Part shown: in pieces, positions 6,547 to 24,509 of the stretch
Layout of the letters: every line of letters begins with the position of its first letter
How positions within the stretch are numbered: the first letter of the stretch is position 1
Assembly (NCBI RefSeq): GCF_000972865.1
Contig: NZ_CP011144.1
Span: 2,542,001-2,606,000, forward strand
Length of the DNA stretch: 64,000 bases
Source of the DNA: Pseudoxanthomonas suwonensis
GTDB lineage: Bacteria; Pseudomonadota; Gammaproteobacteria; Xanthomonadales; Xanthomonadaceae
Reading direction: 5' to 3'
The notes under the pieces: model-generated
Databases searched by the model: none
What the model saw: only the letters and a program-made list of their open reading frames with translations
What the model was told of the DNA's origin: nothing
Program-made: the position numbers and the translations under genes

Positions 6547-7053
6547 ATGAGCACCATCCATGAGCTCGGAGACGCTTTGCGGGTACGCCGCGCAGAGATG
6601 GGGCTAAGCCAGGCCCAAGTGGCTGTGCTTAGCGGTTTGTCGCGGCAAACGGTCAATCAGGTCGAGACGGGTGCGGTTCCGGACTTGGGGCTCAACAAGG
6701 CCGAGCGGCTTGCCACGGTGCTCGGGCTGGCACTACGCGTGGATGTGGGCCGTCCCGCACCCATCAGGGCGCGTCGCAAGATGACCCCGCTTGCGCGTGC
6801 GGCAGCTACCGCCAGCGTGAGCTACAAGACTCCGATTTCAGGCGCGACGCTAAAGAAGGTGCTTGCGACGGGACAAATGCACGAGAAGTACATTCCGCAC
6901 GTACATGCTTTGCTGGACGACGCGCCGGTTTCCCTGCTGGCGGCGGTAGCCGAACAGCTTCACGATGAGACGGATATCGGCCGTGACCTCGTCTGGAAGA
7001 ACTATCGGAGCTTGGCACGCGAGGTGAAAAGCAAGCGCGGAATCTGGGAATGA
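6547..7053 (+). CDS. XRE-family antitoxin/regulator
   Basis: 168 residues. Residues about 8-60 form a Cro/CI helix-turn-helix (ALRVRRAEMGLSQAQVAVLS, then SRQTVNQVETG), followed by a longer C-terminal part rich in Ala and charged residues that may bind the partner. Its stop overlaps the next start by 4 bases (ATGA), coupling translation to the nucleotidyltransferase toxin. The promoter at 6512-6540 suggests a leaderless message and autorepression. This arrangement, with an HTH protein ahead of an AbiEii-like nucleotidyltransferase, is typical of AbiE-like toxin-antitoxin and abortive-infection pairs. First cargo gene inside attL. Confidence 0.88.
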   Translation: MSTIHELGDALRVRRAEMGLSQAQVAVLSGLSRQTVNQVETGAVPDLGLNKAERLATVLGLALRVDVGRPAPIRARRKMTPLARAAATASVSYKTPISGATLKKVLATGQMHEKYIPHVHALLDDAPVSLLAAVAEQLHDETDIGRDLVWKNYRSLAREVKSKRGIWE

Positions 7054-7703
7054 GCCAGCTTGATCTGGGTAGGCCGGGCCCTTGGACTCGCTTGTTTCCC
7101 CATGCGTTGGAGTTGATGTCGCATCTGGAGCAACGGGTTCCTGGTGCAACGTGGACCTTCGGTGGAGGCACCGTGCTCATGCTGCGCATCGCGCATCGGC
7201 AGAGTAAGGATATTGATCTATTTGTCCCAGATCCCCAGTACCTAGGTTACGTTAACCCTCGACTGAGCGATGTCGCTGAGGGTATCAGCACCGACTATGA
7301 GGAGGCAGCGGAGTTCGTCAAGCTGTACCTTCCAGTTGGCGAGATCGACGTGGTCGTTGGTAAAGCAATGACCAGTGTTCCGTACGAAACGGTCGACTAC
7401 CGTGGGCGGATGATTCGGGTCGAGACGTCCGCGGAGATTATCGCCAAGAAGATGTGGCATCGCGGGGATCGTGCAAAGGGGAGGGATCTGTTCGATCTAT
7501 GCGCAGTTGCGAGTGCAGAGCCGGAACAGTTGGAGATGGCAAAGCCTTTTATGGTTCGCCATGGCATTGCTTTTCTGCAGACACTATCTGAACGCGAAGA
7601 TGTTATTAGACGGGAGTTTTTGGCAATCGACGCCATTGGAGAAACGATGGACTTCAATCAATGTCTGCTCCAGGCCGAGTCGATCATCGAACCCCTGCTT
7701 TAG
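7050..7703 (+). CDS. AbiEii-like nucleotidyltransferase toxin
   Basis: 217 residues. The motif FGGGTVLMLRIAHRQSKDID (about 37-56), continuing LFV, matches the GG(T)xL...R...DIDLF signature of AbiEii/AbiGii/MenT-type nucleotidyltransferases. A conserved Lys/Arg region follows (AKKMWHRGDRAKGRDLFDL). Known family members transfer nucleotides to tRNA or protein targets and arrest growth, for example after phage infection. It overlaps the upstream HTH gene by 4 bases. Base composition is less GC-rich than the chromosomal genes. A 9-bp hairpin at 7705-7728 follows immediately. Confidence 0.9.
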   Translation: MSQLDLGRPGPWTRLFPHALELMSHLEQRVPGATWTFGGGTVLMLRIAHRQSKDIDLFVPDPQYLGYVNPRLSDVAEGISTDYEEAAEFVKLYLPVGEIDVVVGKAMTSVPYETVDYRGRMIRVETSAEIIAKKMWHRGDRAKGRDLFDLCAVASAEPEQLEMAKPFMVRHGIAFLQTLSEREDVIRREFLAIDAIGETMDFNQCLLQAESIIEPLL

Positions 7704-11802: not shown

Positions 11803-11831
11803 CTTCCGGTTTTTTCACCCATGTTTCGACT
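11803..11831 (+). promoter_or_regulatory. ECF-type promoter-like motif, copy 1
   Basis: CTTCCGGTTTTTTC (11803-11816), ten variable bases, then CGACT (11827-11831). The distance from CCGG to CGACT is 17 bases, as between -35 and -10 elements. It is identical in layout to copies at 11868 and 16834. It lies upstream of the sigma-like gene. Confidence 0.6.
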
Positions 11832-11867
11832 CGAGGGACACCCCTTGAGGACGGGGCGCCGGCGGGG

Positions 11868-11896
11868 CTTCCGGTTTTTTCGCCGACGCTTCGACT
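11868..11896 (+). promoter_or_regulatory. ECF-type promoter-like motif, copy 2
   Basis: CTTCCGGTTTTTTC (11868-11881), ten bases, CGACT (11892-11896). It is 65 bases downstream of copy 1 and about 128 bases before the start of the sigma-like gene. Two tandem copies ahead of a sigma gene suggest autoregulation. Confidence 0.62.
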
Positions 11897-12023
11897 GGGA
11901 GGGAAACGACCCCAATGCGCGTTCGACGCTGGCCGTGGCCTAACCGCGATCGCGTAAGGCATCAGATCGAATGGTTCGGTCTTGCACTCGAAGAGGTCGG
12001 AAAGCCTGGAGGAAAATAGCCGT

Positions 12024-12788
12024 ATGAAGGCCGACCTAGAACCACCCGATAGCGAACCGGGGAAGCAGCCCCTGGGCCGCCTCCCCGAAGTGACAAGCCA
12101 AATCGACGCGCTCGGAGCGCTCAGCCGCGATGAGCGACTGGCTCGCCTGAAGCAAGCGGCACGAAAAAAAGACCTGCGCGCCGAGACGCTGCTGTACAGC
12201 GTATGTGCGGGCCACGACGCGAAAGACCAGGAGTTGTACTGGGCCGCGTTCGAGGCCTTGGTCAAAGCCGCCACCCCGATGATCGCCGGCCGCATGCGCC
12301 GGTTGTACGGCATCTCCGATGACGACCTGCTCGATCACCAGCAGTTGATCTTCGAGAGCGTGCACAAGAGCGTAGAACGCAACGATCCGGGCCTCGAGTA
12401 CGGCATCCGACGCTTCTCCTCGTACCTGGTGCGTCGTTCAATCGATGCCATGCGCTCGCGGCACCACCCCTGGGCGTGCAGCCTCGAACTGGCTCTGGAA
12501 AAAGTCGACCAGCATTACGACAGCGAAGGCAAGCTGATCGAGCCTGACTGGGATCCGCCGGATGTGGAGTTCGAGCCGCAAGTCCGTGCTCTGGCCCGTG
12601 AAGAGCTCGAAGCCCTCCAGCGCCGCGTGGCTCATCTGCCTAAAAAGGCCGTCGAAGCGTTCTTGCTCTCGCGCGCGCTGCAACGAACTCAACCCCAAAT
12701 TGCACAGCAGCTGGGCGTCTCCGATCGCACCGTCCGCGAGTGGATCGGCAAGATCGCTAAAGCGCTTGGTGAAAGGAAAGATCTATGA
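12024..12788 (+). CDS. ECF-like RNA polymerase sigma factor
   Basis: 254 residues. The middle (DDLLDHQQLIFESVHKSVER and then RRFSSYLVRRSIDAMRSRH) resembles sigma region 2 with its core-binding and -10-binding helices. The C-terminal part (LPKKAVEAFLLSRALQRTQP, then IAQQLGVSDRTVREWIGKI) is a region-4 helix-turn-helix. An acidic linker lies between. ATG 12024 is used because GGAGG (12008-12013) precedes it. It overlaps the next gene by 4 bases. Two copies of a promoter-like motif lie upstream and a third precedes the Bil operon, so this protein is the likely reader of that motif (inference). It could instead be a sigma-like HTH adaptor. Confidence 0.75.
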   Translation: MKADLEPPDSEPGKQPLGRLPEVTSQIDALGALSRDERLARLKQAARKKDLRAETLLYSVCAGHDAKDQELYWAAFEALVKAATPMIAGRMRRLYGISDDDLLDHQQLIFESVHKSVERNDPGLEYGIRRFSSYLVRRSIDAMRSRHHPWACSLELALEKVDQHYDSEGKLIEPDWDPPDVEFEPQVRALAREELEALQRRVAHLPKKAVEAFLLSRALQRTQPQIAQQLGVSDRTVREWIGKIAKALGERKDL

Positions 12789-13414
12789 GTTACAAAATTA
12801 TTCTCGACGACGTCCTCGGCGCCTTCGCCGCCGCGGCAGACCGCCCGTCCAAGGCCTTGGTGGACGAATGGACCGAAAAGTACCCGCAGTTCGAGACCGA
12901 GATTGTCGAGTTCGCCCTCGAATGGGCGGCGACGGTGCTAGTCGGCAGCGAACTGCTGACCGTGGAGGAGGAAGACCACCTTGTCAGCCACACCATGAGC
13001 CATCTGCAGCGTGTGAGCCAAAAGCAAGATCACGTCGCGGCCGCGCCGTCGCCAGTGCGATCGGCCGGCGCGACCCGCGACCAGATCCGACGCGTGGAAG
13101 CAGCGTTTCGTGCGCGCGGCCCCCAGGCCGCGTGGACGAAGAGCTTGGGCATCGACGAGTCGATCCTGGCGCTGTTTGAAGAGCACATGATCTTGCCGCC
13201 GGTGCCTCAACGTCTGCTCAACGCCTTTTCATCCGCGCTTAACGAAGGCGTGGACGCCGTCAGCGCCTGGTTGTTTCAAGACAACAGTAGGGTGGTTTTG
13301 GCCCGCTCGGCGGCCAAAGCCCCCACCCGTACACGCTGGACGTTCGAGCAGGCCGTTGAGAACTCCACACTGTCGGACGAAGCCAAGCAGCAATGGCTTC
13401 GTGAGACCATCTAA
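12785..13414 (+). CDS. Unknown protein between sigma factor and ImmA-helicase
   Basis: 209 residues, ATG overlapping the sigma stop (ATGA). It is soluble and acidic, with predicted helices (ALVDEWTEKYPQFETEIVEF, then ALEWAATVL), a polar linker near residues 80-100 and a C-terminal helical part with WTFEQAVENS. No family recognised. Its position, translationally coupled to an ECF-like sigma factor, is where anti-sigma factors sit, and the following gene encodes an ImmA/IrrE-type protease domain, a class known to cleave repressors. An anti-sigma or substrate role is a reasonable but untested guess. Confidence 0.7.
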   Translation: MSYKIILDDVLGAFAAAADRPSKALVDEWTEKYPQFETEIVEFALEWAATVLVGSELLTVEEEDHLVSHTMSHLQRVSQKQDHVAAAPSPVRSAGATRDQIRRVEAAFRARGPQAAWTKSLGIDESILALFEEHMILPPVPQRLLNAFSSALNEGVDAVSAWLFQDNSRVVLARSAAKAPTRTRWTFEQAVENSTLSDEAKQQWLRETI

Positions 13415-13426
13415 AGCGTATTTGCC

Positions 13427-16400
13427 GTGGATGCGTTCACTTCGGTTCGGCTAAAGGCGCAACAGGTGCGTCAGCGCCTGCAGGAAAAAACAAGCTGCGG
13501 CCAGGCGGCCCCTGCGTTGTTGAAGGCGGCGATGGAGGACGCCGAACTCACCGTCTTGCACGTGCCCGCCGACTACCCCTTGCTCGGGGGCGGTATGGGC
13601 GCGTTGCAACGCACCAGTCAGCGCATCACCCTTTCCAACGCGCTGGATCCGGAAGCGAAGGTCTTCGTCCAGGCCCACGAGTTCGGTCATTGGGTGATCG
13701 AATCGCCCGCCGATCCGGTGCTGGTGAGCTTCGATGTCGACGCCGAGGGGCCCGAACAGGCCACGCCCTTGGGCACGGGGCGCGTGGAAGGCTACAGCGC
13801 GCTGGAGATGCGCGAGCGCTATGCCAACGTGTTCGCTCGCGAATTCTTATTGCCGGTGGACCTGGCCCGGCACCTGTTCGTCGAGCAGCAGTGGCCGGCC
13901 TCGAAGATCGCCAGCGAGCTGGGAATCGCGTCGGGCCTGGTCTACCAACAGCTGCAGTACGCACTGCTGGTGCCCGATCCGCCGCCTGCGTCACCGGACA
14001 AACCGCTCGCGGAGCTGGATCCGTCGCAGCACATCGCCGCCCACCACGTGGGCACGCCGGCGCTGGTGGAAGCCGGCCCGGGCACGGGCAAGACGCGCAC
14101 GCTGATTGGACGCATCGAGCACCTGCTCAAGGCGGGCACCGATCCGCGGTCAATCCTAGCGTTGACCTTCTCCAACAAGGCGGCGCGCGAGATCAAAGAG
14201 CGCATCGCACGCATGATCCCGACCGCGAACGAGCTGTGGGCCGGGACCTTCCACGCCTTCGGCCTGGAATTGCTGCGCAAGCATGCCGCCCAAGCCGGAC
14301 TGCCCGAGCCGGTGCGCGTGGTGGACCCAGCCGATGCGCTCGAGCGCCTGGAAGCGGTGCTGCCGAGCCTGGAGTTGAACTACTACCTGCGATTGAATGA
14401 TCCGCTCGCCCAGATCCAGCCGGTGCTGGGCGCGATCTCGCGCGCCAAGGACGAGCTTTGCACGCCGGCGCAGTACGCCGCGTTGGCGGCGCAAATGGCC
14501 CAAGGCGCGCAAACCGATGCCGAACGCGAGGCCGCTGAGCGGGCCGACGAAGTGGCTCGGGTCTATGCCCGCTACGAGTCGATGCTCGAAGAAGCGGGGG
14601 CGGTAGATTTTGGCGACCTGATCTGGCGTGCCATCCGCCTGCTGGAAGATCACCCCGAGGTGCTGGCCGCGGTCCGCGACCAGTTCGCCCACGTGCTGGT
14701 GGACGAGTATCAAGACGTCAACCGCGCCAGCTCGCGCCTGCTCAAGCTGATCGCGGGCGAGGGAGAGCGCTTGTGGGTGGTCGGCGACGTGCGCCAGGCG
14801 ATCTACCGGTTCCGCGGCGCATCCCCAGGCAATATGCGCCTGTTTACGACCGAATACCCCGGCGCCAAGGTGTTGCCGCTGGAGCGCAACTACCGCTCCG
14901 GGCAACGTATCATCGATACCTACACGACTTTCGCCCGCAGCCTGGACGATCCGGTCTGGCGCGCTGTCACGCAGCTCAAAGCCGATCGCGGCGACGGGCA
15001 CCGCCCTCAGCTCCTGGTCGCACCGGACCTGGATTCGGAAGTCAGCGCCATCGCGCAGGCGATCGAGGCCCATCGCCAACAAGGCGTGGGCTACCGCGAC
15101 CAGGCCATCATCGTGCGAACGCATACCCACGCCGAGCGCGTCGCCGTGCGTTTGCAGGCGTTGGGCGTGCCGTCGATGTATCTGGGCGACATCTTCGAGC
15201 GCGCGGAAGTGCGCGATTTGCTGGCGTTGATTTCGTTCGTCGCCGAACCCAGCCGCGGCGCCTTGTTGCGGCTGGCGGCCACCGGCGCCTACGGCATGCC
15301 CCTAGAAGACGTGCGCACGTTCTTGCAGCACGCGCACGCGGCCCAGCACATGCCACTGGCGGCGTTGTCCGACCCCGCGGTCGTCGCCGCGTGCTCGCCG
15401 GCCGGGCGCACGGCCTTGGAGCGCTTGCGCGATGACCTGGCCAGCGTGTCATTCGAATCGACCGTCCCGCAGGTGCTCCATCACGTACTGTTCGAGCGTC
15501 GCGCCCTGATCGATGAACTGCTAGAAGGCGAGCGTAGCGCTGACCAGCAACGCCGCTTGGCTGTCTTCCAACTGCTGCAGTTCGCCGCTGAGCATTTCGA
15601 CCCGCGCAAGGGCAACTCCAAGAAGAACCTGCTGCGCTGGATCCGCCGGCTGGAGCAATTCGGTGAGGAGCGAGCGCTCCGCGAGTTGCCAGCGGCCGCC
15701 GCCTCGATCGATGCGGTGCGGCTGATGACGGTCCACGCCAGCAAGGGCCTGGAATTTCCGGTGGTGTACCTGCCGTACCTGGCCACCACCCACTTTCCGC
15801 AATCCGGCCGCTACGTCCCGTGCCCGCCGCCGACCGGCATGTTGCGCACCGAGGATGTCAGCGACCGGTTCGAGGAAGAAAGCCTGTTTTACGTGGCGCT
15901 CTCGCGCGCACGCGACTATGTGCATCTGTCGCGATCCCAGCGGCTGGGCGCCCGCAATGCCTCCGAATCTAAGTTCCTGCCGTCCATCGTGGGGCAGGTC
16001 ACGCGCACCGACGCCCCCCAGTGCGCGCCGTTGCCGATCGCTGACGAGTTGCCCGCTCGCCCGGAGCTCAAGCTCGAGCCGTCGATCCACGAGGCACGCG
16101 AGTTGGATCAGTACGAACGGTGCCCACGCAAGTACGCCTACTCCCGGAGCCTGGGCCTGCACGCCAGCGGGGACGATGACGGATACGCGCGTTTTCACCG
16201 CTCGGTCTACGCGGTGTTGTCGTGGGTGCTGCAGCAGCGGCAAACGCGCGAAGTTCCGCTGGAGGAGTACTGGCCCCAGCTTGAGCAGGTGTGGGCGACT
16301 CAAGGACCGGGGGATCATCCGTTTTCGCCGGTCTACAAGGACTTCGCCGTGCGCTTGCTCACTAAGGCGCAAGAACATCTGCGCGCGCCCGAGGCGACCT

Positions 16401-16789
16401 CCCAGCCAGTGGAAATGGACGTGGGCGGCGTGCGCGTGCGCGTGGAGCTCGACCAGACCGAGCCAGGCAACGGCGGCCTGGTGCGCCGCTACAAGACCGG
16501 TCGCCGCCCCAAGAAGGTGAAGGTGGAACTGCCTGAGACCTTGCGACTGCTGGCCGGCCAACAGCTCTACGGAAAAGATGCGCGTTTGCAGATGCATTAT
16601 CTGACCTCCGGCGACACCGTCGATCTGGAGATCACCGGTAAGCAGCTCGATGCCACCGTGGCCGAGGTGCGCACCATTGCCAATGCCATCGCCGCCGGCG
16701 AGTTCCCGCCGAACATCGGCGACCAATGCCCGCGTTGCCCGTTTTTCTTCTTGTGTCCGGCGATCCCGCCGGTCGCGGTGGCTTCCTGA
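13427..16789 (+). CDS. ImmA/IrrE protease - UvrD helicase - RecB-like nuclease fusion
   Basis: 1120 residues, GTG start. Domain 1 (about 35-180) is an ImmA/IrrE metalloprotease with zinc motif H84-E-F-G-H88 and ANVFAREFLLP. Domain 2 (about 200-870) is an SF1 UvrD/Rep helicase: Walker A GPGTGKT (217-223), VDEYQD (425-430), GDVRQAIYRFRGA, LERNYRSG and VHASKGLEF. Domain 3 is RecB/AddB-like, with C899 (YERCPRKY) and C1101, C1104, C1110 (CPRCPFFFLC) as likely Fe-S ligands. The nuclease motif keeps D1009, but the usual D-x-K reads R1021-Y-K1023, so cleavage activity is doubtful. Last gene of the sigma operon. Coupling a protease to a helicase suggests damage or phage-DNA sensing that releases a regulator. 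Confidence 0.88.
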   Translation: MDAFTSVRLKAQQVRQRLQEKTSCGQAAPALLKAAMEDAELTVLHVPADYPLLGGGMGALQRTSQRITLSNALDPEAKVFVQAHEFGHWVIESPADPVLVSFDVDAEGPEQATPLGTGRVEGYSALEMRERYANVFAREFLLPVDLARHLFVEQQWPASKIASELGIASGLVYQQLQYALLVPDPPPASPDKPLAELDPSQHIAAHHVGTPALVEAGPGTGKTRTLIGRIEHLLKAGTDPRSILALTFSNKAAREIKERIARMIPTANELWAGTFHAFGLELLRKHAAQAGLPEPVRVVDPADALERLEAVLPSLELNYYLRLNDPLAQIQPVLGAISRAKDELCTPAQYAALAAQMAQGAQTDAEREAAERADEVARVYARYESMLEEAGAVDFGDLIWRAIRLLEDHPEVLAAVRDQFAHVLVDEYQDVNRASSRLLKLIAGEGERLWVVGDVRQAIYRFRGASPGNMRLFTTEYPGAKVLPLERNYRSGQRIIDTYTTFARSLDDPVWRAVTQLKADRGDGHRPQLLVAPDLDSEVSAIAQAIEAHRQQGVGYRDQAIIVRTHTHAERVAVRLQALGVPSMYLGDIFERAEVRDLLALISFVAEPSRGALLRLAATGAYGMPLEDVRTFLQHAHAAQHMPLAALSDPAVVAACSPAGRTALERLRDDLASVSFESTVPQVLHHVLFERRALIDELLEGERSADQQRRLAVFQLLQFAAEHFDPRKGNSKKNLLRWIRRLEQFGEERALRELPAAAASIDAVRLMTVHASKGLEFPVVYLPYLATTHFPQSGRYVPCPPPTGMLRTEDVSDRFEEESLFYVALSRARDYVHLSRSQRLGARNASESKFLPSIVGQVTRTDAPQCAPLPIADELPARPELKLEPSIHEARELDQYERCPRKYAYSRSLGLHASGDDDGYARFHRSVYAVLSWVLQQRQTREVPLEEYWPQLEQVWATQGPGDHPFSPVYKDFAVRLLTKAQEHLRAPEATSQPVEMDVGGVRVRVELDQTEPGNGGLVRRYKTGRRPKKVKVELPETLRLLAGQQLYGKDARLQMHYLTSGDTVDLEITGKQLDATVAEVRTIANAIAAGEFPPNIGDQCPRCPFFFLCPAIPPVAVAS

Positions 16790-16833
16790 TTCGGGCGCGC
16801 CTGGCCAAGTTTCTTCGCCGCTTTCAAAATCAT

Positions 16834-16862
16834 CTTCCGGTTTTTTCTCGCGCTACGCGACT
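16834..16862 (+). promoter_or_regulatory. ECF-type promoter-like motif, copy 3 (before Bil operon)
   Basis: CTTCCGGTTTTTTC (16834-16847), ten bases, CGACT (16858-16862): the same two blocks with the same spacing as at 11803 and 11868, although the ten bases between differ. It lies 58 bases before the Bil Ubl start, in the 130-base gap after the ImmA-helicase gene. Confidence 0.65.
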
Positions 16863-16919
16863 AGCTGTGTGACGGCGTTGGAATTCCCCAACGACGAATG
16901 ACACAGAAGGTGGTGAAGC

Positions 16920-17423
16920 GTGAAAAACATCAAGATCGTATTGCAGCGCGAGGGCGCTGCGCAGGTGCTGGTCGGCGACTTGAATGGCCAGCAGACGGTG
17001 GGCGAAGCGCTCAAGGCGCTTGGCGTTACCCACATCGGGCAGGACCTCCTCCACGCCGAGGATCACGACGGCCCGGTGGAGCTGAAGACGCCGGTGCAGG
17101 CGCTGGTATCGGGCAAGGGCGAGGGCGGACCGGCGCTGGTGCGCTTGCACCAGGGCCGCTGCCGGCGCGTCAGCGTCAACGTCACCTTCAACGGGGTGAC
17201 GAAGTCGCGCGACTTCCCGCCGGTGACGCGCGTGGGCCACGTGCATCAGTGGGCGACGCACAACGCCTTCGAGATGTCGCCGCGCGACGCGGCCGAGCAC
17301 GTGCTCGAGCTCGAAGGTGGCGACGAGCGCCCCGATTCCGACGCCCAAATCGGCACGCTGACCGATGGCGTGCTGTGCGCGGTGGCCTTCGACCTGGTGC
17401 CCTTCAAGCGCGTGGAGGGCTGA
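16920..17423 (+). CDS. bilA: Ubiquitin-like protein of Bil system (BilA-like)
   Basis: 167 residues, GTG start behind AAGGTGGTG. The length and strand pattern fit two fused beta-grasp domains (about 1-85 and 86-167): KNIKIVLQREGAAQVLVGDL opens the first and RRVSVNVTFNGVTKSRDFPP the second. It ends FKRVEG, so the terminal residue is already glycine and no processing would be needed before E1 activation. It is followed by E2-like, JAB and E1-like genes. BilABCD systems attach an ISG15-like protein to phage tail components and protect bacteria. Assignment rests mainly on operon context and size. Confidence 0.78.
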   Translation: MKNIKIVLQREGAAQVLVGDLNGQQTVGEALKALGVTHIGQDLLHAEDHDGPVELKTPVQALVSGKGEGGPALVRLHQGRCRRVSVNVTFNGVTKSRDFPPVTRVGHVHQWATHNAFEMSPRDAAEHVLELEGGDERPDSDAQIGTLTDGVLCAVAFDLVPFKRVEG

Positions 17424-17427
17424 CATA

Positions 17428-17880
17428 ATGTCCTTGGACCAACAGGCCTTCGAGGCCGACGTCAACTCCGGGGCTTTCCTCAACGGCTCGTTCTCGGGCC
17501 GTTGGGGGCTGGACTCGATTGCCTGGCCGCACGCGCTGATCTGGGTGCGTGCCGGCGACGGCAGCCGGCTGCTGCTGCGCTTCGAGCTGACCAACTACCC
17601 GCGCAACGCGCCCACGGCCCAGCCGTGGGATGTCGAGTGCAACGCCAACCTGTCCCCGGCGCGGTGGCCGCGCGGCCACGAGCGGATCAACGCCGCCTTC
17701 AACCCGAACTGGAACGCCAGCGCGCTGTACATCCCTTGCGATCGCATCGCGATCCAGGGCCACGAGGCCTGGCGCCAGCAGCATCCGTCCATGCTGTGGG
17801 ATCCGGCCGTGGGCATCCACCGTTACGTGCGGGTCGTGTCCGATCTGCTGGGGTCGCCTGACTATGCCCGCGCCCAGTGA
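17428..17880 (+). CDS. bilB: E2-like conjugating enzyme (BilB-like)
   Basis: 150 residues, ATG four bases after the Ubl stop. It has the prokaryotic E2 pattern: a beta-meander (ALIWVRAGDGSRLLLRFEL), the loop TNYPRNAPTAQPWD that replaces the YPxxPP of eukaryotic E2s, and the candidate catalytic Cys104 in ALYIPCDRIAIQGHEAW, followed by helix HRYVRVVSDLL. It would receive the Ubl from the E1-like protein as a thioester and pass it to the target. It overlaps the JAB gene by 17 bases. Confidence 0.82.
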   Translation: MSLDQQAFEADVNSGAFLNGSFSGRWGLDSIAWPHALIWVRAGDGSRLLLRFELTNYPRNAPTAQPWDVECNANLSPARWPRGHERINAAFNPNWNASALYIPCDRIAIQGHEAWRQQHPSMLWDPAVGIHRYVRVVSDLLGSPDYARAQ

Positions 17881-18352
17881 ACTTCGGATGCCACGCCGGC
17901 TGTGGGACGGCCTGATCGCGCAGCTGCACGCACGCACTGGCGGTGAGACCCACGAATCGGGCGCCTTCCTGCTCGGGCAGATGACCGAGCACGGTCGCCG
18001 CGTCACCGACGTGCTGTACTTCGATGACCTGCACCCGGAAGTGCACGCCCGTGGCGTCGTGGACTTGCCTGCGGCGGCATTTCGTCGCCTGTGGGCGATC
18101 GTGCGCGAGCGCGGTGTGCAGGTGGTGGGCGATGTGCACGTGCACCCGTACAGCGCCCGACAGAGCCGCATCGATCGACAGAACCCGCTGATCGCCGCGC
18201 GCGGCCACGTCGCAATCATCTTGCCCAACTTCGCGCGGCCGCGAATCCGCCGCTGGTCGGTGGGCGTGTACGTCTACGAAGGCGACCACCAATGGCAGGC
18301 GGTGGGCGGCTGCGGCCGTCGGTTCTTGGTAATGGAGGATGACCATGAGTGA
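17864..18352 (+). CDS. bilD: JAB/MPN metalloprotease, deubiquitinase-like (BilD-like)
   Basis: 162 residues. The JAMM zinc site is visible: E31 in THESGAFLLG, H92-V-H94-P, and S101-x-x-D104 in the segment ending RQSRID. Such proteins cleave the isopeptide bond or trim Ubl precursors. The start ATG 17864 lies inside the end of the E2 gene; an in-frame ATG at 17888 is a weaker alternative. Its stop overlaps the E1 gene. As the Ubl already ends in Gly, recycling of conjugates is the more likely task here. Confidence 0.87.
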   Translation: MPAPSELRMPRRLWDGLIAQLHARTGGETHESGAFLLGQMTEHGRRVTDVLYFDDLHPEVHARGVVDLPAAAFRRLWAIVRERGVQVVGDVHVHPYSARQSRIDRQNPLIAARGHVAIILPNFARPRIRRWSVGVYVYEGDHQWQAVGGCGRRFLVMEDDHE

Positions 18353-19724
18353 GTCGATGGAGGAGCTGGGCGAGCGCCTGAGTCGGGTGCTCAAGATGGT
18401 GCTGGACACCGGCGAGGCGGCCTCCGAGGCCGAGGCGCTGGCGATCTTCGCGCGCTATCGCGTGCAGTTGGTCTTTGGCGCCGACCTAGGCGAGATGGCG
18501 CAGGCCGCCCTGCTGACGGCCGCCGCCACTGCGTTGCCGTGCCTGCTGGGCGGCGTGAGCTACTTGGGGCCCGAGCAGCCGCTGCGCGCACGCTGGCGAG
18601 GGCATCCGGATACGCCGGCGCCCGCGGGCTTGGCCGCTACCCTGGAAGCCTTCGGTGTCACGCGCGCAAGCGCGCGGGATCCCCAAGTGCCGTGCCTGGT
18701 GATCGGACGCGTGCACGCCGAAGGCTTTGGCATTCGCGCCAGCTTCAATGGCTGGACAGCCGCGGTGCTGTCGCTGGACGACGAGCCACTGGCCGAGCAG
18801 GGCAACTGCGCAGCCGCGGCGGTGCTCGCCGGCGCGATGGCGGTGAGCGAGATCTTTCAGTTCTTCCGCGGAACGCAGGCGCTGGCCTGCCATCGCCGCA
18901 TCGGCTGGTCATTGTGGGATCCGACGGTGCCGTGGACGGCGGCCGCGTCAGGTCCGGCGCTGACGGTGCTGCCGCAATCGGCTTGGCTGGTGGGCGTTGG
19001 TAACTTGGGCCAGGCCTACCTGTGGACCTTGGGCCTGCTGCCCTACGGCGCCTACCCGTGCGAGTTGGTGCTGCAGGATTTCGATCCGGTTTCGCTCGCG
19101 AATAAGAGCACCTCTTTGCTCAGTCGCGAGATCGATGTGGGACGCCGCAAGACTCGCATGGCGGCGGACTGGGCTGAGCACCGCGGCTTTCGCACGACGC
19201 TCATCGAACGGCGTTTCGGCGCTGACTTCACCGTGGCTAGCGACGAGCCGGCCGTGGCGCTGATGGGGGTGGACAATCCGGCGGCGCGACGGCTGGTCGA
19301 GCAGGTGGGCTTTTCCCGAGTGATAGAGGCCGGCCTCGGACGCGGCCCCGGCGATTACCTCGGCATCAACGTGCACACCTTCCCGGCCCCGCGCTCGGCG
19401 CTGGATTGCTGGCCGGACCCGGCGACCGCGCCCGCCGATGCGAATCCCGGCCCCTTCAACCAGGTGGCCTACCAGCAGCTGCTGGCCGACAGCGGCGATC
19501 GCTGCGGCGCGCTGCGCCTGGCGGGGCGCAGCATCGCCACGCCTTTCACTGGCGCGGCAGCGGGGGCGCTAGTGATCGGCGAATTGCTGCGGCTGTGTCA
19601 CGGCGGAGCGCGAGTGGAGTACATTGCGCTGCATCTGGCTCGGCCGCTCGAGAGCACGGCCGTGGCTGGGATGCCGTGGCCAGTCAGCAACCCCGGGCTA
19701 GTCGCAGCAGCGCTGTCGGTGTAG
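18345..19724 (+). CDS. bilC: E1-like ThiF-family activating enzyme (BilC-like)
   Basis: 459 residues. An N-terminal ~200-residue domain precedes a ThiF/UBA adenylation domain with G217-V-G-N-L-G222, acidic ligand in LVLQDFDPVSLANKST, and Arg/Lys in VGRRKTRMAA. Candidate catalytic Cys387 lies in GDRCGALRLAGRSIATPF. It would adenylate the terminal glycine of the Ubl, then hold it as a thioester before transfer to the E2. ATG 18345 is chosen over 18339 because GGAGG then has 6-base spacing. It overlaps the JAB gene by 8 bases and closes the four-gene operon. Confidence 0.88.
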   Translation: MSESMEELGERLSRVLKMVLDTGEAASEAEALAIFARYRVQLVFGADLGEMAQAALLTAAATALPCLLGGVSYLGPEQPLRARWRGHPDTPAPAGLAATLEAFGVTRASARDPQVPCLVIGRVHAEGFGIRASFNGWTAAVLSLDDEPLAEQGNCAAAAVLAGAMAVSEIFQFFRGTQALACHRRIGWSLWDPTVPWTAAASGPALTVLPQSAWLVGVGNLGQAYLWTLGLLPYGAYPCELVLQDFDPVSLANKSTSLLSREIDVGRRKTRMAADWAEHRGFRTTLIERRFGADFTVASDEPAVALMGVDNPAARRLVEQVGFSRVIEAGLGRGPGDYLGINVHTFPAPRSALDCWPDPATAPADANPGPFNQVAYQQLLADSGDRCGALRLAGRSIATPFTGAAAGALVIGELLRLCHGGARVEYIALHLARPLESTAVAGMPWPVSNPGLVAAALSV

Positions 19725-19844: not shown

Positions 19845-22800
19845 TTATGGAACTCCGACAATGCAAGCTCGAATCCGCTCATCGGGATGGTGCGGTGCCG
19901 GGATCACTCCGAAATGTCGTCGAACAGCTTCAAGTACCCAATCGGGTCGTTCGAGCAGATCGCTGCGGATGTCCTCCAGTAGCAAGGGTCGCGATCGTTT
20001 CTCCCGCAATCGTTCAAACCAGATCGGACGAATGATGTCGAGCCAGCGTGCCGCGATCTCATTCCAGTCTGGTAGGCGATCCTTGCTGGGATGGCTGAGA
20101 AGATCTTGCAGTTTTTCTAGGAACTCAAGGTCTTCGGCCTGTTGCTTGCTTGACGCATACGATATGAGATGACTGCAAACATCGAGAAGTTGGTGGATTG
20201 CTCGCTGTTTCTTTCGGGAGAGTAAGTGGCGTTCCGCCATGGGCAAGCGTTCAAGGAACATGTTCATTGTCCTGGCCGACCTGTCGTCAAGCGGAAGGTT
20301 GTGAACGTCAGGTCCAAGCTGCTCACGAAGCATGGCGACTATGGCCGTAAATTCTGATTGGATATCCTCATTAGCAGAGGACATAAAAAGCCATCGTGGT
20401 GCGTTGAAAGCCCCGGCGCTAAGGCAGAAGAAAGCCCAAGGTTGTGTCGCAGAAACAAGGCTGACCCGGGAAAGCACTTTTTCAGTGACGATGCGATAGC
20501 GCTCATATACGTCTTTCGAGATCAGCGAATCTGGGCCCTCCAATAGGCCGCGAATTGGAGAGAAGGCATCATCAATACCGTCCCATGCATTTCCTGCGCT
20601 GTTCTCGTACTCTTCAACCATCTGCCTCGCAGTAACTTTTACGGGAGAAACGTCGGCTTGGCGTTGAAGGTGTTCTGGCAATGGAACATTCGATCCCAGA
20701 AGCCTTTCTACGGTCTCGAATCTCTCGATCAAGCGCTCATCTGAGCTCAACGCAAACTCATCGGCGTCATCGGGCCACCAGACATGAACAGTTGAGTGGG
20801 GGCTATCCAGCCGGTCTATGCGGCCGGCACGTTGTTCAGCGACACGCACGACACTGGGCATATCCAGGTGCACTAGGACAGATGCCCTTTGCATGTTGAC
20901 GCCTTCAGACAAGCTGTCAGAGCACAGGCCAAGAACCTTGCTTGCAGGGGATCCCAGGGATAAAGCACTTAACAGTTGATCACGATCTGACTTTGCGTCT
21001 CCAGTCGCGAGCATGGCGCCAACCCCCTTGCTGCGAAGCATGCCTTGGAGCAGGGCAAGCGTTATGGGACGGCTGTCGAAGGCGAGTACGGATTCCGATT
21101 CCTCTAGAAGAGTCGTGAGAAGCTCAGCCTTCTTGGTCTCGCGGTGAGCGGTTATCTCGCGTACTAGTCTGCTGATCTCGAGGTAGATGCTGGCATCATG
21201 CCGACAGGCTTCGGAGTGAGCCGATTCGTTAGATAGCCAGTCGGGGAGATCCACACGCAGCTTGTTCTCGGGGATACGTCCCGCAATATCCTGTACTTTC
21301 TGATACTGATTCCCGGTTTCATCCTTTCTGAAGCTTTGGGTGAGCGAGAATTCTTTAAGTGTGTTGGTTGTTCCATGAATGTGTTCGAGAAGTGCCGCAC
21401 GCGAGGAGCGTAGAGCTTTCATGATTGCGTATCTCGCTAGCTTCTTTGCCGAGGAAAGGCGGCCATGGAGATACTGTGCTTCTGTGACGCCTTGCCTGTG
21501 GAGCAGGGTAGGCATCTCAATTGGGCGGACAAAGTGAGTAACGCCATATAGCGTGTCGGCAAGATCCTTGATGCGATGCGCAAGCTCCCGATCGGATATA
21601 GGCTCTTCTAGTTTGTACACGTTGGGATTGTGTTTCGGGAACCGGCATTCCCTTCCATCGGTGCTTCGATATGCGGAAGGTTCGCGATCAATCAGGACGT
21701 TGAGCATGCTCTTGGTCCGGCGAACTGTAAATTTGCGCAACTCTAGACGCAGCTGATCAACTTCTGGGGATGTCAGTGACCGGGTGAAGTCTTTCGCCCT
21801 CAACATCTTGTGGAATGTCTCGATGGTGGAAGGTTCCAGGTTGTCGGCCCCCAGGACATCTGCAATGCGCAACAGATCAGTGATGCCGCGGTTGATTGGC
21901 GTTGCTGTTAGCATCACTACATGATCCGCCATGTTTCCTAGGATTAGCTGCGTGCGTTGAGCCTTCAGGTTAAGAAAGTTATGCCCTTCGTCTACACACA
22001 GGATTTGGGCGCGCTTTAGCTCTTCGACACGCAACGCATGGCGCCGACTACCACGATGGCTAAGCTCGCCATGGGAGCGTACATCCAGCTGGACATGGGT
22101 CCTGAGCACTTCCCGTTCCCATTCTTCGACAACGGTAGGCGGGGCGATCATTACCGCCTTCCCGTGCCACAACCTTCCGGAACGAACGATGTTGTCGTGG
22201 ACGGCACCAACCAGATGGGTGCCCATGCGAGTCTTGCCGGCACCAGTCGCGTCTGCAATAAGCACGCTGCCCTGTTGGTCAAGAACCAGTAGGGCTTGAG
22301 CAATGCCCTGTTTTTGGCTTGGCCAAAGCGTATCGGCATCGCCCAGATAGTCCCCATGTAGATAGATGCTCGCCCAGTCGCCCTCGAGCACCTCGGCGCA
22401 AGCGCGAGCGAGTGCTTCATCCCAATGGACTGGCCTCAGCAACCTTTCAAGAAGAGAGATAAGTTGATGTGAATAGTCAGTTCCTAGGGACCAGAAGCCT
22501 TCCGCAATTTTTGTTAGTTCGTGATAGCGATCCGCATCGACGCCATTTCGTTCGAAGCGCGCGTTGGCTTCATGTTGATTGACAAGCCCTGGTTCTGTGA
22601 AATTACTTGAGCCTAAGGTTGCCGCTTGATCACTACAGTAGATCTTTGCATGGAGCATGTTGCCGCCACGGAGATATCTCGCCTGTACGGAGCCTTCCTT
22701 CAGTCGTTCGATTGTCCGAATCAATGCGGCCGAGCGGATTAGGGAGACGCCACGACCCAGCCAATACTTCTCTGCGAGCGCTGGAAGCTCATCTTCAAGA

Positions 22801-23096
22801 AGTTGGAACTCCTGCCGCCGTGATGCGAAAGGTTCATTTCCGACCAGTAGTCTTACTTGCGCTTCACGGTCGCTGACCGATGCAAACTCAAGGAAGCGAT
22901 CCAGGCTGGAGTAGCCGCTGATGATCAATGGGCTACGCGATCTCTTGAGATCGTTCCAGACCCAGTTCTCGACCTTGTCTCCGCCGTCATTGAGGGGAAA
23001 TCTCCCACCATGCGGCCAATCAATCGCTATGCGCTCGCTAGCTCCTTGGGCAGAAGCGAACAGTAAGAGAGTTCGATCGTCTCCTCGCTTGCGCAC
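19845..23096 (-). CDS. PLD nuclease - SNF2-type helicase fusion
   Basis: 1083 residues. The N-terminal phospholipase-D domain carries a full HKD motif, H149-A-K151...D156, then GSSNF. An SF2 helicase follows: Walker A ATGAGKT (283-289), DEGH (369-372), MLTATPIN, and motif VI QRAGRIDRLD. About 250 C-terminal residues are of unknown fold. PLD-helicase proteins are frequent in defence islands and could degrade invading DNA. GTG 23096 is the first start in frame, but an overlapping frame opens with ATG (MEYNLRQGDG) 39 bases upstream, so the N-terminus is uncertain. GC content is clearly below that of the neighbours. Convergent with the Bil operon. Confidence 0.85.
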   Translation of the reverse strand: MRKRGDDRTLLLFASAQGASERIAIDWPHGGRFPLNDGGDKVENWVWNDLKRSRSPLIISGYSSLDRFLEFASVSDREAQVRLLVGNEPFASRRQEFQLLEDELPALAEKYWLGRGVSLIRSAALIRTIERLKEGSVQARYLRGGNMLHAKIYCSDQAATLGSSNFTEPGLVNQHEANARFERNGVDADRYHELTKIAEGFWSLGTDYSHQLISLLERLLRPVHWDEALARACAEVLEGDWASIYLHGDYLGDADTLWPSQKQGIAQALLVLDQQGSVLIADATGAGKTRMGTHLVGAVHDNIVRSGRLWHGKAVMIAPPTVVEEWEREVLRTHVQLDVRSHGELSHRGSRRHALRVEELKRAQILCVDEGHNFLNLKAQRTQLILGNMADHVVMLTATPINRGITDLLRIADVLGADNLEPSTIETFHKMLRAKDFTRSLTSPEVDQLRLELRKFTVRRTKSMLNVLIDREPSAYRSTDGRECRFPKHNPNVYKLEEPISDRELAHRIKDLADTLYGVTHFVRPIEMPTLLHRQGVTEAQYLHGRLSSAKKLARYAIMKALRSSRAALLEHIHGTTNTLKEFSLTQSFRKDETGNQYQKVQDIAGRIPENKLRVDLPDWLSNESAHSEACRHDASIYLEISRLVREITAHRETKKAELLTTLLEESESVLAFDSRPITLALLQGMLRSKGVGAMLATGDAKSDRDQLLSALSLGSPASKVLGLCSDSLSEGVNMQRASVLVHLDMPSVVRVAEQRAGRIDRLDSPHSTVHVWWPDDADEFALSSDERLIERFETVERLLGSNVPLPEHLQRQADVSPVKVTARQMVEEYENSAGNAWDGIDDAFSPIRGLLEGPDSLISKDVYERYRIVTEKVLSRVSLVSATQPWAFFCLSAGAFNAPRWLFMSSANEDIQSEFTAIVAMLREQLGPDVHNLPLDDRSARTMNMFLERLPMAERHLLSRKKQRAIHQLLDVCSHLISYASSKQQAEDLEFLEKLQDLLSHPSKDRLPDWNEIAARWLDIIRPIWFERLREKRSRPLLLEDIRSDLLERPDWVLEAVRRHFGVIPAPHHPDERIRACIVGVP

Positions 23097-23240: not shown

Positions 23241-24509
23241 TTACCTTTGCTTTCGTCGTGCCTGATCCTTGACGAGCTGCGGTACTTTTTTGGTGCCACT
23301 GCCTTCTAGCAGCAGACCAGCCAATTGTTGCGTGCGATCCGAGGTTCCATCACTTGGCTGGCGTGCATCTATGGCGGCATCCGCGCGGCTCGCCCATTCC
23401 GCCTGCAATTGAACCGCAAGCAGATATGCGGTTGCTTGGGCCGCCTTGGCCAGGCTCGAAGATCTGCTATGCGACTCGTGCAGTGCTTCCGGACGCAGAT
23501 GGGTATAGCGCTTGAGGATCTTCCAGTCACGATGACCAGTGACGAGTGCGACCTGTTCGATGCTCATGCCTGCCTCGAACAGCCGATTGGTCGCCTCGTG
23601 TCGCAGGTCGTGAAAGTGCAGGTCATGGATCTTCAGGAGCTTGCACGCACGTCGGAATGCAGTGCCAATCGAACGCGAGTTGTATGGAAAGATCAAGTCG
23701 CCACGCCGGCAATACTTGCGTTGTACCCGAATTAGACGCAGTGCATCGAAACCGGTCAGATTGAGTAGCGGTACGAACTGGTGGTTGCCGTCCTTCTCTC
23801 GCGGATCCTTGCGATCGCGTACAAGGACAACGCGCCGCTGTACGTCGACCTCGCTCCAGCGGATACGACAGATCTCCTCCTGACGCATCGCGCTGGCAAT
23901 AGCAAAGCGCACGACCCGACCCATTGGAATTTGCAGCTTGGAGTTGTCGTCGAAGTGGTCGAGCAGGCGCTGGAGTTCATCGGCGGTTGGGCGCCGGTCG
24001 CGCTGTCGCGACTGTCCGATCAGGCCCAATCGTTTGAGGGCGAACCGTGCTAGATCGACGGGTTCGGCCTTCACATTGACGCCATGCACGGCCGCCGCAT
24101 GGGTGAGTACGAGCTTGAGGTAGCTGAAGTCGGTGCTGAGTGTCACCGGGCCGGCGCCTTCCTTTGCACGATTCTTGCCGAATTGGATCAGCCGCTCGCG
24201 CGTGAGATCCTCAAGCCTGACCTTGCCGAGCTTGTCTTTCAGCGCGTCGAGCGTGAATGCCTTGGAGCGGCGCGGCGCCTTGCCCACCTCGCACATGTCT
24301 TCCACGTGCAGATCGACCAGATGGGCGAACGTGGTCGGGTCGACTTTGCCTCGCTTCAGCGGTGGTTCGCCACGATCAATCCGGTGCTCGGTTTCAGTGG
24401 CCCACCTTCGCGCGTCCTCATGGCGCAGGAAGGTCTCGCTGGCATACGATTGTTTTCGTCGAACCTGGACCCGCCAGTGGCCCGACGGCAGCTTGGTGAT
24501 CGTGGCCAT
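23241..24509 (-). CDS. Tyrosine recombinase/integrase of dusA island
   Basis: 422 residues. An N-terminal arm-binding region (ITKLPSGHWRVQVRRKQSYA) and a SAM-like core-binding domain precede the catalytic domain with R209 (AMRQEEICRIRW), H300-D-L-R303-H, H326 (GHRDWK) and nucleophile Y335 (KRYTHL). The full R-H-R-H-Y set is present, so it is probably active. It lies 145 bases from attR. The location in dusA identifies it with the dusA-targeting integrase class. The C-terminal ~80 residues are Ala-rich and not part of the core fold. Confidence 0.93.
   Translation of the reverse strand: MATITKLPSGHWRVQVRRKQSYASETFLRHEDARRWATETEHRIDRGEPPLKRGKVDPTTFAHLVDLHVEDMCEVGKAPRRSKAFTLDALKDKLGKVRLEDLTRERLIQFGKNRAKEGAGPVTLSTDFSYLKLVLTHAAAVHGVNVKAEPVDLARFALKRLGLIGQSRQRDRRPTADELQRLLDHFDDNSKLQIPMGRVVRFAIASAMRQEEICRIRWSEVDVQRRVVLVRDRKDPREKDGNHQFVPLLNLTGFDALRLIRVQRKYCRRGDLIFPYNSRSIGTAFRRACKLLKIHDLHFHDLRHEATNRLFEAGMSIEQVALVTGHRDWKILKRYTHLRPEALHESHSRSSSLAKAAQATAYLLAVQLQAEWASRADAAIDARQPSDGTSDRTQQLAGLLLEGSGTKKVPQLVKDQARRKQR

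Follow-up and report, generated by a model that had tools for sequence, protein, structure and literature searches.

What switches on a bacterial ubiquitin-like (Ubl) conjugation operon, and when? The question is raised by a stretch of 64,000 nucleotides from Pseudoxanthomonas suwonensis (positions 2,542,001 to 2,606,000 of contig NZ_CP011144.1, forward strand; called the window in the following). Here the genes for an extracytoplasmic function (ECF)-like sigma factor, a small protein (mid) and a fusion of an M78 protease with a UvrD-type helicase, together the triad, stand upstream of a bacterial ISG15-like (Bil) operon, and the pattern CTTCCGGTTTTTTC-N10-CGACT precedes both the sigma gene and bilA. 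The earlier note on this DNA had located three copies of the pattern, two 5' of the sigma gene and one 5' of the Bil operon, and both the positions and the assignment to genes were confirmed: all three lie on the + strand with 0 mismatches each, sites 1 and 2 between the divergent ietA and the sigma gene (12024) and the third 86 to 58 bases ahead of the bilA start codon (16920), within the 130-base gap between uvrD and bilA. A search of the window that tolerated as many as 3 mismatches found no fourth match (0.01 expected by chance, from 100 dinucleotide shuffles). Nor is the motif scattered at random: across the single contig of 3,891,720 bases that makes up the genome, the exact motif is confined to these three sites on the island, and the reversed control gave 0 matches. 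Shortening the pattern by one base and tolerating up to 3 mismatches added 2 places (2 and 3 mismatches) and 1 control match. Comparison with related loci argues strongly that the motif represents the promoters of the adjacent sigma factor.

When the region upstream of the sigma gene was compared, locus by locus, with the uvrD-bilA gap alone, a two-block element emerged in distant lineages as well: TTCCGATT..CGACTT in Xanthomonas, TTCCGATT..CGACT in Variovorax, TTCCGG..CGATTAA in Pseudohalocynthiibacter, and TTCCGAT..TTGTA in the Rhizobium locus L020 and in Sinorhizobium (the last of these was picked by eye). The core kept across lineages is TT(C/A)CCG and CGA(C/T)T with a spacer of 16 or 17 bases; exceptions occur in some lineages (L018, L020, L021). 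As first described, the motif holds for its TTCCGG-type and CGACT blocks, whereas it is chiefly close relatives that share the long T-run with TTTC.

A forward model started from the window motif and learned solely from the sequence 5' of sigma genes at other loci, with close relatives excluded. It recovered the bilA site of the window at p=0.001, and of 20 sigma-Bil loci it assigned 15 a site before bilA at p<=0.005 (the misses being L018, 0.643; L020, 0.140; L021, 0.382; L032, 0.117; and L039, 0.050). It also scored in 3/5 loci in which the triad precedes a multiubiquitin/ThiF/DUF6527 gene set, which we take to be what the literature calls Bub (the other two, L055 and L057, gave 0.074 and 0.338), and at the orphan locus L054 (0.001, spacer 15). 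As controls, Bil operons without the triad gave 1/9 at <=0.005 (L043, 0.001); L052 reached 0.015 and the other 7 exceeded 0.1. In the reverse test, a model that had learned from the regions 5' of Ubl operons at other loci recovered site 2 of the window at p=0.002 and a sigma-gene site at <=0.006 in 14/19 sigma-Bil loci (L051, 0.028), but in 0/5 Bub loci (L060, 0.014). A bipartite promoter of fixed spacing, putatively cognate, precedes the sigma gene in the window and in 14/19 sigma-Bil loci; homologous sigma-Bil islands keep the motif, and in most of them it stands 5' of sigma as well as of bilA. Knowledge of the window motif went into the seeding or building of both models, and shuffle controls preserved base content only, except for the dinucleotide shuffles used in the window search and in a repeat of the new-genome test described below.

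The two promoters of a locus also vary together. In 15 loci, paired promoters differ at a mean of 1.27 of 16 features, compared to 4.53 when pairs were permuted, and 0 of 100,000 permutations were as low; the promoter of the own partner was closest or tied in 13/15 loci (the exceptions being L010 and L011). The registers of L018 and L020 were set by hand, and leaving out both loci gave 1.0 versus 3.6; for sigma genes with more than one site, a single site was used (the second in the window, the nearest in L010, the best-scoring in L030). In L010, a stretch of about 0.8 kb splits uvrD from bilA, and CTTCCGTTTTTTTC-N10-CGACT stays directly 5' of bilA. At the Cupriavidus locus L034, which is without M78-UvrD, both promoters persist along with a sigma-like ORF and mid; the two loci count in favour of the circuit proposed below.

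A new sample was obtained with a profile of the helicase, which at E<=1e-200 detected 18 loci in 398 genomes of one order; none of these 18 genomes took part in building the models. A Ubl operon lies immediately 3' of the helicase in 18/18 (5 Bil, 11 Bub and 2 other layouts), a proportion that may be biased because the profile was built from Ubl-associated helicases at this threshold. Open reading frames (ORFs) of the sigma and mid kind precede it in 18/18; tblastn supported sigma in 16/18 and mid in 16/18, the rest being ORFs of fitting size and place. A second model, built from the Ubl-operon sites of the earlier loci, found a site 5' of the Ubl operon in 14/18 new genomes at p<=0.01 and in 16/18 at <=0.05 (missing L096, 0.083, and L097, 0.256), and these 16 sites lie at positions -70 to -98 relative to the operon's predicted start codon. 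Dinucleotide shuffles left the counts unchanged (14/18 and 16/18), and 90 control windows inside uvrD reached a maximum score of 14.7 (99th percentile 11.6). Re-run at <=0.01, the model scored in 15/18 in forward orientation versus 1/18 for the reverse complement and 1/18 for the reversed sequence. At scores >=12, 11 sites had a spacer of 16 and 3 a spacer of 17, with 0 to 2 at any other spacer from 11 to 21. This fixed spacing and strand bias support the likeness to -35/-10 elements of ECF promoters that had been suggested from the window alone. A sigma-gene site was detected in 4/18 new loci at <=0.01 (L085, L089, L093, L095) and in 8/18 at <=0.05. The same profile gave 1/18 and 1/17 in two further orders, both of them loci found previously. 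The two unusual layouts stand under a triad and are neither plain Bil nor plain Bub: L086 (6992-9002) has a short Ubl-like ORF and an E1-like match, L091 (7010-8147) a Ubl and a JAB-like match.

The sigma factor is rare. Its relatives number 31 proteins at E<=0.001 in a database of 5.8 billion, 4/395 genomes of the family (the window's own counted) and 4 loci in a scan of one genome per species (84,980 species); at these four loci all seven genes were matched, with one to three copies of the site before sigma and the site also before bilA. The whole cassette, from sigma to bilABCD, is present in gamma-, beta- and alphaproteobacteria. No sigma relative was detected on viral contigs, no BilD in phage records, and no sigma by tblastn in plasmids, where mid matched 5 records; in 369 genomes of the class, mid was found in the window's own genome only. 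BilD occurs in 38 plasmid records. Nineteen of these regions were examined, 13 of which are of the sigma kind (in L032 sigma is apparently cut by IS256 and was judged by its position, and L034 is without M78-UvrD), while 6 have no match to sigma, mid or a linked M78-UvrD; the other 19 records comprise 16 apparent near-copies and three from Bradyrhizobium with partial matches, and the loci are an uneven sample. At L033, BilD matched alone. In the phylum sample BilD was found in 4/398 genomes, namely the window's and three without triad matches, and in another class in 7/385: two with the cassette, two of the three triad-less genomes just mentioned, one with a helix-turn-helix (HTH)/M78-like pair and two partial.

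The M78-UvrD fusion reaches further, to 96 plasmid records at E<=1e-60 (top matches span the whole fusion; 18 records cover <80%). Six of 7 non-Bil fusion regions examined have Bub genes beside the triad, among them the cyanobacterial L058, which is confirmed by tblastn at 50-65% identity, and the divergent Robbsia locus L056, in which no recognisable site was seen. The idea of a regulated Bil subtype was sound insofar as Bil operons carry the motif, but it is too narrow because the same triad also stands before Bub operons. On the Pseudomonas plasmid of L054, the triad and a promoter-like site after it are kept, and insertion sequences lie before a bubA remnant about 6.5 kb on. Between the window and L012, sigma and mid diverge fastest (41% identity each, compared to 70-81% for the other genes), which likewise counts in favour of the circuit. 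In a BilD tree of 35 rows the sigma label requires 3 changes, with weak support for the deepest split; controllers seem to have been swapped between operons because the sigma-type L039 is nested in a non-sigma group.

The cassette runs on the + strand from sigma through mid and the M78-UvrD-PD-(D/E)XK fusion to a gap with the third site and bilABCD (16920-19724; Table 1). Mid and the fusion, the two components that would turn the arrangement into a switch, had no part in the earlier note. Region 4 of the sigma factor is well recognized (PF08281, Sigma70_r4_2, 40.8 bits versus a cutoff of 25.7; found in 14/22 aligned members at E<=0.01), region 2 weakly (PF04542, 13.2 bits, cutoff 24), and TIGR02937 covers residues 75-248 with 43.2 bits, barely over its cutoff of 42.9. 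Mid of the window has no match in Pfam, PADLOC or NCBIfam, and none at E<=1 among PDB sequences; the Cro/CI domain HTH_26 was weakly matched in 9/30 members of its family, the window's not among them. An AlphaFold model predicts a 5-helix domain at residues 98-163, and over residues 101-166 this domain aligns with Cro/CI repressors, including CapH, ImmR and DdrO, at modest Z scores; no anti-sigma fold was among the matches listed, which proves nothing. The fusion comprises an M78 (ImmA/IrrE) protease at residues 59-175 (Peptidase_M78, 29.0 bits, cutoff 22), a UvrD-type superfamily 1 helicase at about 197-838 and a PD-(D/E)XK fold with four Cys at 892-1111. HExGH, GPGTGKT, DE-QD and the four Cys are invariant in 17/17 aligned proteins, and the catalytic D/ExK is replaced across them (judged by eye); this domain is perhaps a dead nuclease used for binding. 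Judged by its genes, bilABCD is a complete Bil set in canonical order, with a putative anti-phage role.

Table 1. Features of the sigma-Bil cassette in the window.
Feature	Position	Strand	Basis
Promoter-like site 1, 5' of sigma gene	11803..11831	+	exact pattern match; -35 TTCCGGTTT 11804-11812, -10 CGACT 11827-11831
Promoter-like site 2, 5' of sigma gene	11868..11896	+	exact match; -35 11869-11877, -10 11892-11896
Sigma-70-family (ECF-like) sigma factor, 254 aa	12024..12788	+	Sigma70_r4_2 E 1.7e-10, above cutoff; TIGR02937 sigma70-ECF
mid, 209 aa, candidate protease substrate/anti-sigma	12785..13414	+	start overlaps sigma stop
M78-UvrD-PD-(D/E)XK fusion	13427..16789	+	Pfam
Promoter-like site 5' of bilA	16834..16862	+	exact match; -35 16835-16843, -10 CGACT 16858-16862
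Hairpin/inverted repeat, start of predicted bil leader	16873..16896	+	fold; own z only -0.8
bilA, ubiquitin-like protein	16920..17423	+	PADLOC BilA E 1.1e-46
bilB, E2-like	17428..17880	+	PADLOC BilB E 1.6e-54; DUF7665
bilC, JAB/JAMM deconjugase	17864..18352	+	PADLOC BilC E 6.6e-60; Prok-JAB
bilD, E1-like	18339..19724	+	PADLOC BilD E 1e-154; ThiF

Sequence comparison establishes that the promoters are paired, that they keep spacing and strand and co-vary within loci, and that the triad is tied to Ubl operons. We infer that the sigma factor reads the sites and is held by mid, that mid in turn is cut by M78, and that the signal is DNA. In the circuit that we consider probable, the sigma factor would drive its own operon (sigma, mid and the M78-helicase fusion) together with bilABCD. 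In the resting cell it would be inactive, most likely held by mid; DNA damage or phage replication intermediates would engage the helicase part of the fusion, whose protease domain would then cleave mid and free the sigma factor, which would turn on bilABCD and, where its own gene bears the promoter, more sigma. With what appears to be its own promoter reader and matching promoters, the Ubl system could be switched on as a unit, probably on triggering of the DNA-sensing protease.

Mid might instead be a CapH-like DNA-binding repressor of the same promoters, with M78 cleavage lifting repression and the sigma factor providing specificity only, which we regard as unlikely although not far-fetched. 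Such a role would suit its Cro/CI-like domain and the inverted repeats directly after the predicted start in Ubl leaders: 35 leaders have a mean fold z of -1.33, versus 0.0 in 63 windows inside uvrD, with 24/35 below -1 and arms that are altered yet still pair. However, the regions before sigma genes lack such repeats (mean z +0.4, n=24), though many bear the same promoter, and the repeat is unspecific, since the mean is -1.19 in 6 leaders from Bil operons of the non-sigma kind. For the latter reason, the hairpin was dropped as a sigma-specific element; it may be an RNA element or an operator. Still less probable is that the sigma factor is constitutively active, or kept in check by degradation or by the M78-helicase rather than by mid, and that mid serves as a chaperone or co-activator. 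The Cupriavidus locus L034, which retains a sigma-like ORF, mid and both promoters without M78-UvrD, would fit this, but it is a single case in which the loss may be decay, and a protease gene beside a Cro/CI-like protein matches the known layout of protease and substrate. We see very little room for the motif being an operator at which some different regulator, of the host or of the island, would act in place of the sigma factor: in some lineages CCGG is self-complementary, and L043 scores without a triad, but the site is asymmetric, strand-specific (15 versus 1 of 18) and fixed at a spacer of 16/17, and 7/9 triad-less Bil operons have p>0.1. Least credible of all is a functionless repeat kept by descent or chance, for while the window and L009 are not an independent pair because their genes are 87-95% identical, the motif also occurs at loci whose sigma factor shares no more than 13-22% identity with that of the window, and in new genomes, and 0.01 copies were expected by chance; the model tests and the co-variation of paired promoters already make this reading unlikely.

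How would a sigma factor released from mid compare to known controllers? ECF sigma/anti-sigma pairs with regulated proteolysis have an autoregulated sigma factor and a bipartite promoter, and ImmR is a substrate of an M78 protease. The cassette resembles such pairs in its apparently autoregulated sigma factor, the 16-17 bp bipartite promoter and the overlap of the sigma gene with the next gene; it differs in that mid is Cro/CI-like with no membrane part seen, the protease is an M78-helicase fusion and the target is a Ubl operon. The target operons are standard Bil (by PADLOC) or Bub (by annotations and tblastn), distinguished here by the preceding sigma triad. DdrO is described as an M78 protease substrate. 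So is CapH, according to PMC13373217, which describes CapW/BrxR, CapH+CapP and CapK+CapS as controllers of immune operons, capK+capS at five Bil operons, and DNA-damage controllers also beside Bub and other immune operons. As described there, CapH+CapP shares with our cassette the position beside the operon, the M78 protease, the Cro/CI-like partner and the intergenic promoter before the immune operon. In contrast to CapH+CapP, the output here would be a dedicated sigma factor, and the M78 domain forms one protein with a UvrD helicase and a PD-(D/E)XK domain that is apparently dead; moreover, CapH is an HTH repressor, whereas mid is at most a candidate DNA binder, with weak sequence and fold likeness to Cro/CI proteins. 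The stand-alone protease and repressor without sigma that define CapH+CapP are not what the window cassette encodes. HTH and ImmA/IrrE genes do occur beside other Bil operons (annotated in L035, L036 and L040; recognized by eye in L042, where they are fused, and in L052). CapK+CapS and CapW/BrxR, as far as they are described in PMC13373217, differ in being repressor-based. No sigma-factor controller was found in the available text of PMC13373217, and a search of PMC12839542 by terms gave nothing on sigma control of Bil or Bub; the main text of PMC1779556 mentions neither 'sigma' nor 'helicase'. Titles and abstracts, of which coverage was partial and which are no proof of absence, describe no sigma factor for Bil or Bub.

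The surroundings of the cassette contain further genes of interest. An IetA/IetS anti-phage pair (8138-11645, PADLOC) on the opposite strand diverges from the sigma promoters, and this neighbourhood may recur because an annotated AAA ATPase and S8 peptidase pair also precedes sigma in Xanthomonas L029. Directly after bilD, on the - strand (19845-23096), lies a long PLD and SNF2/Helicase_C protein resembling defence helicases. An HTH gene and an AbiEii nucleotidyltransferase form a toxin-antitoxin-like pair at 6547-7703, and a tyrosine integrase (Phage_integrase) beside a DDAH-like gene at 23241-24509 possibly marks the right edge of the island.

The locus is thus best read as a controller of Ubl conjugation operons that works through a sigma factor and is gated by a protease; it parallels CapH+CapP but would act by activation. 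We give somewhat better than even chances to the wider proposal that it adds a fourth class to the controllers of immune operons, the first to act via a dedicated sigma factor, in which a helicase engaged with DNA lets M78 cut a Cro/CI-like anti-sigma and so release a burst of Bil or Bub transcription, across phyla. The finding bears on the question of what holds Ubl conjugation back in bacteria until they are infected. If true, Bil and Bub would be tied under one controller, with repressor logic replaced by sigma activation. The circuit is specific and quickly testable, and the promoter signature may be used to find further Ubl operons and to trace the swapping of controllers among them.

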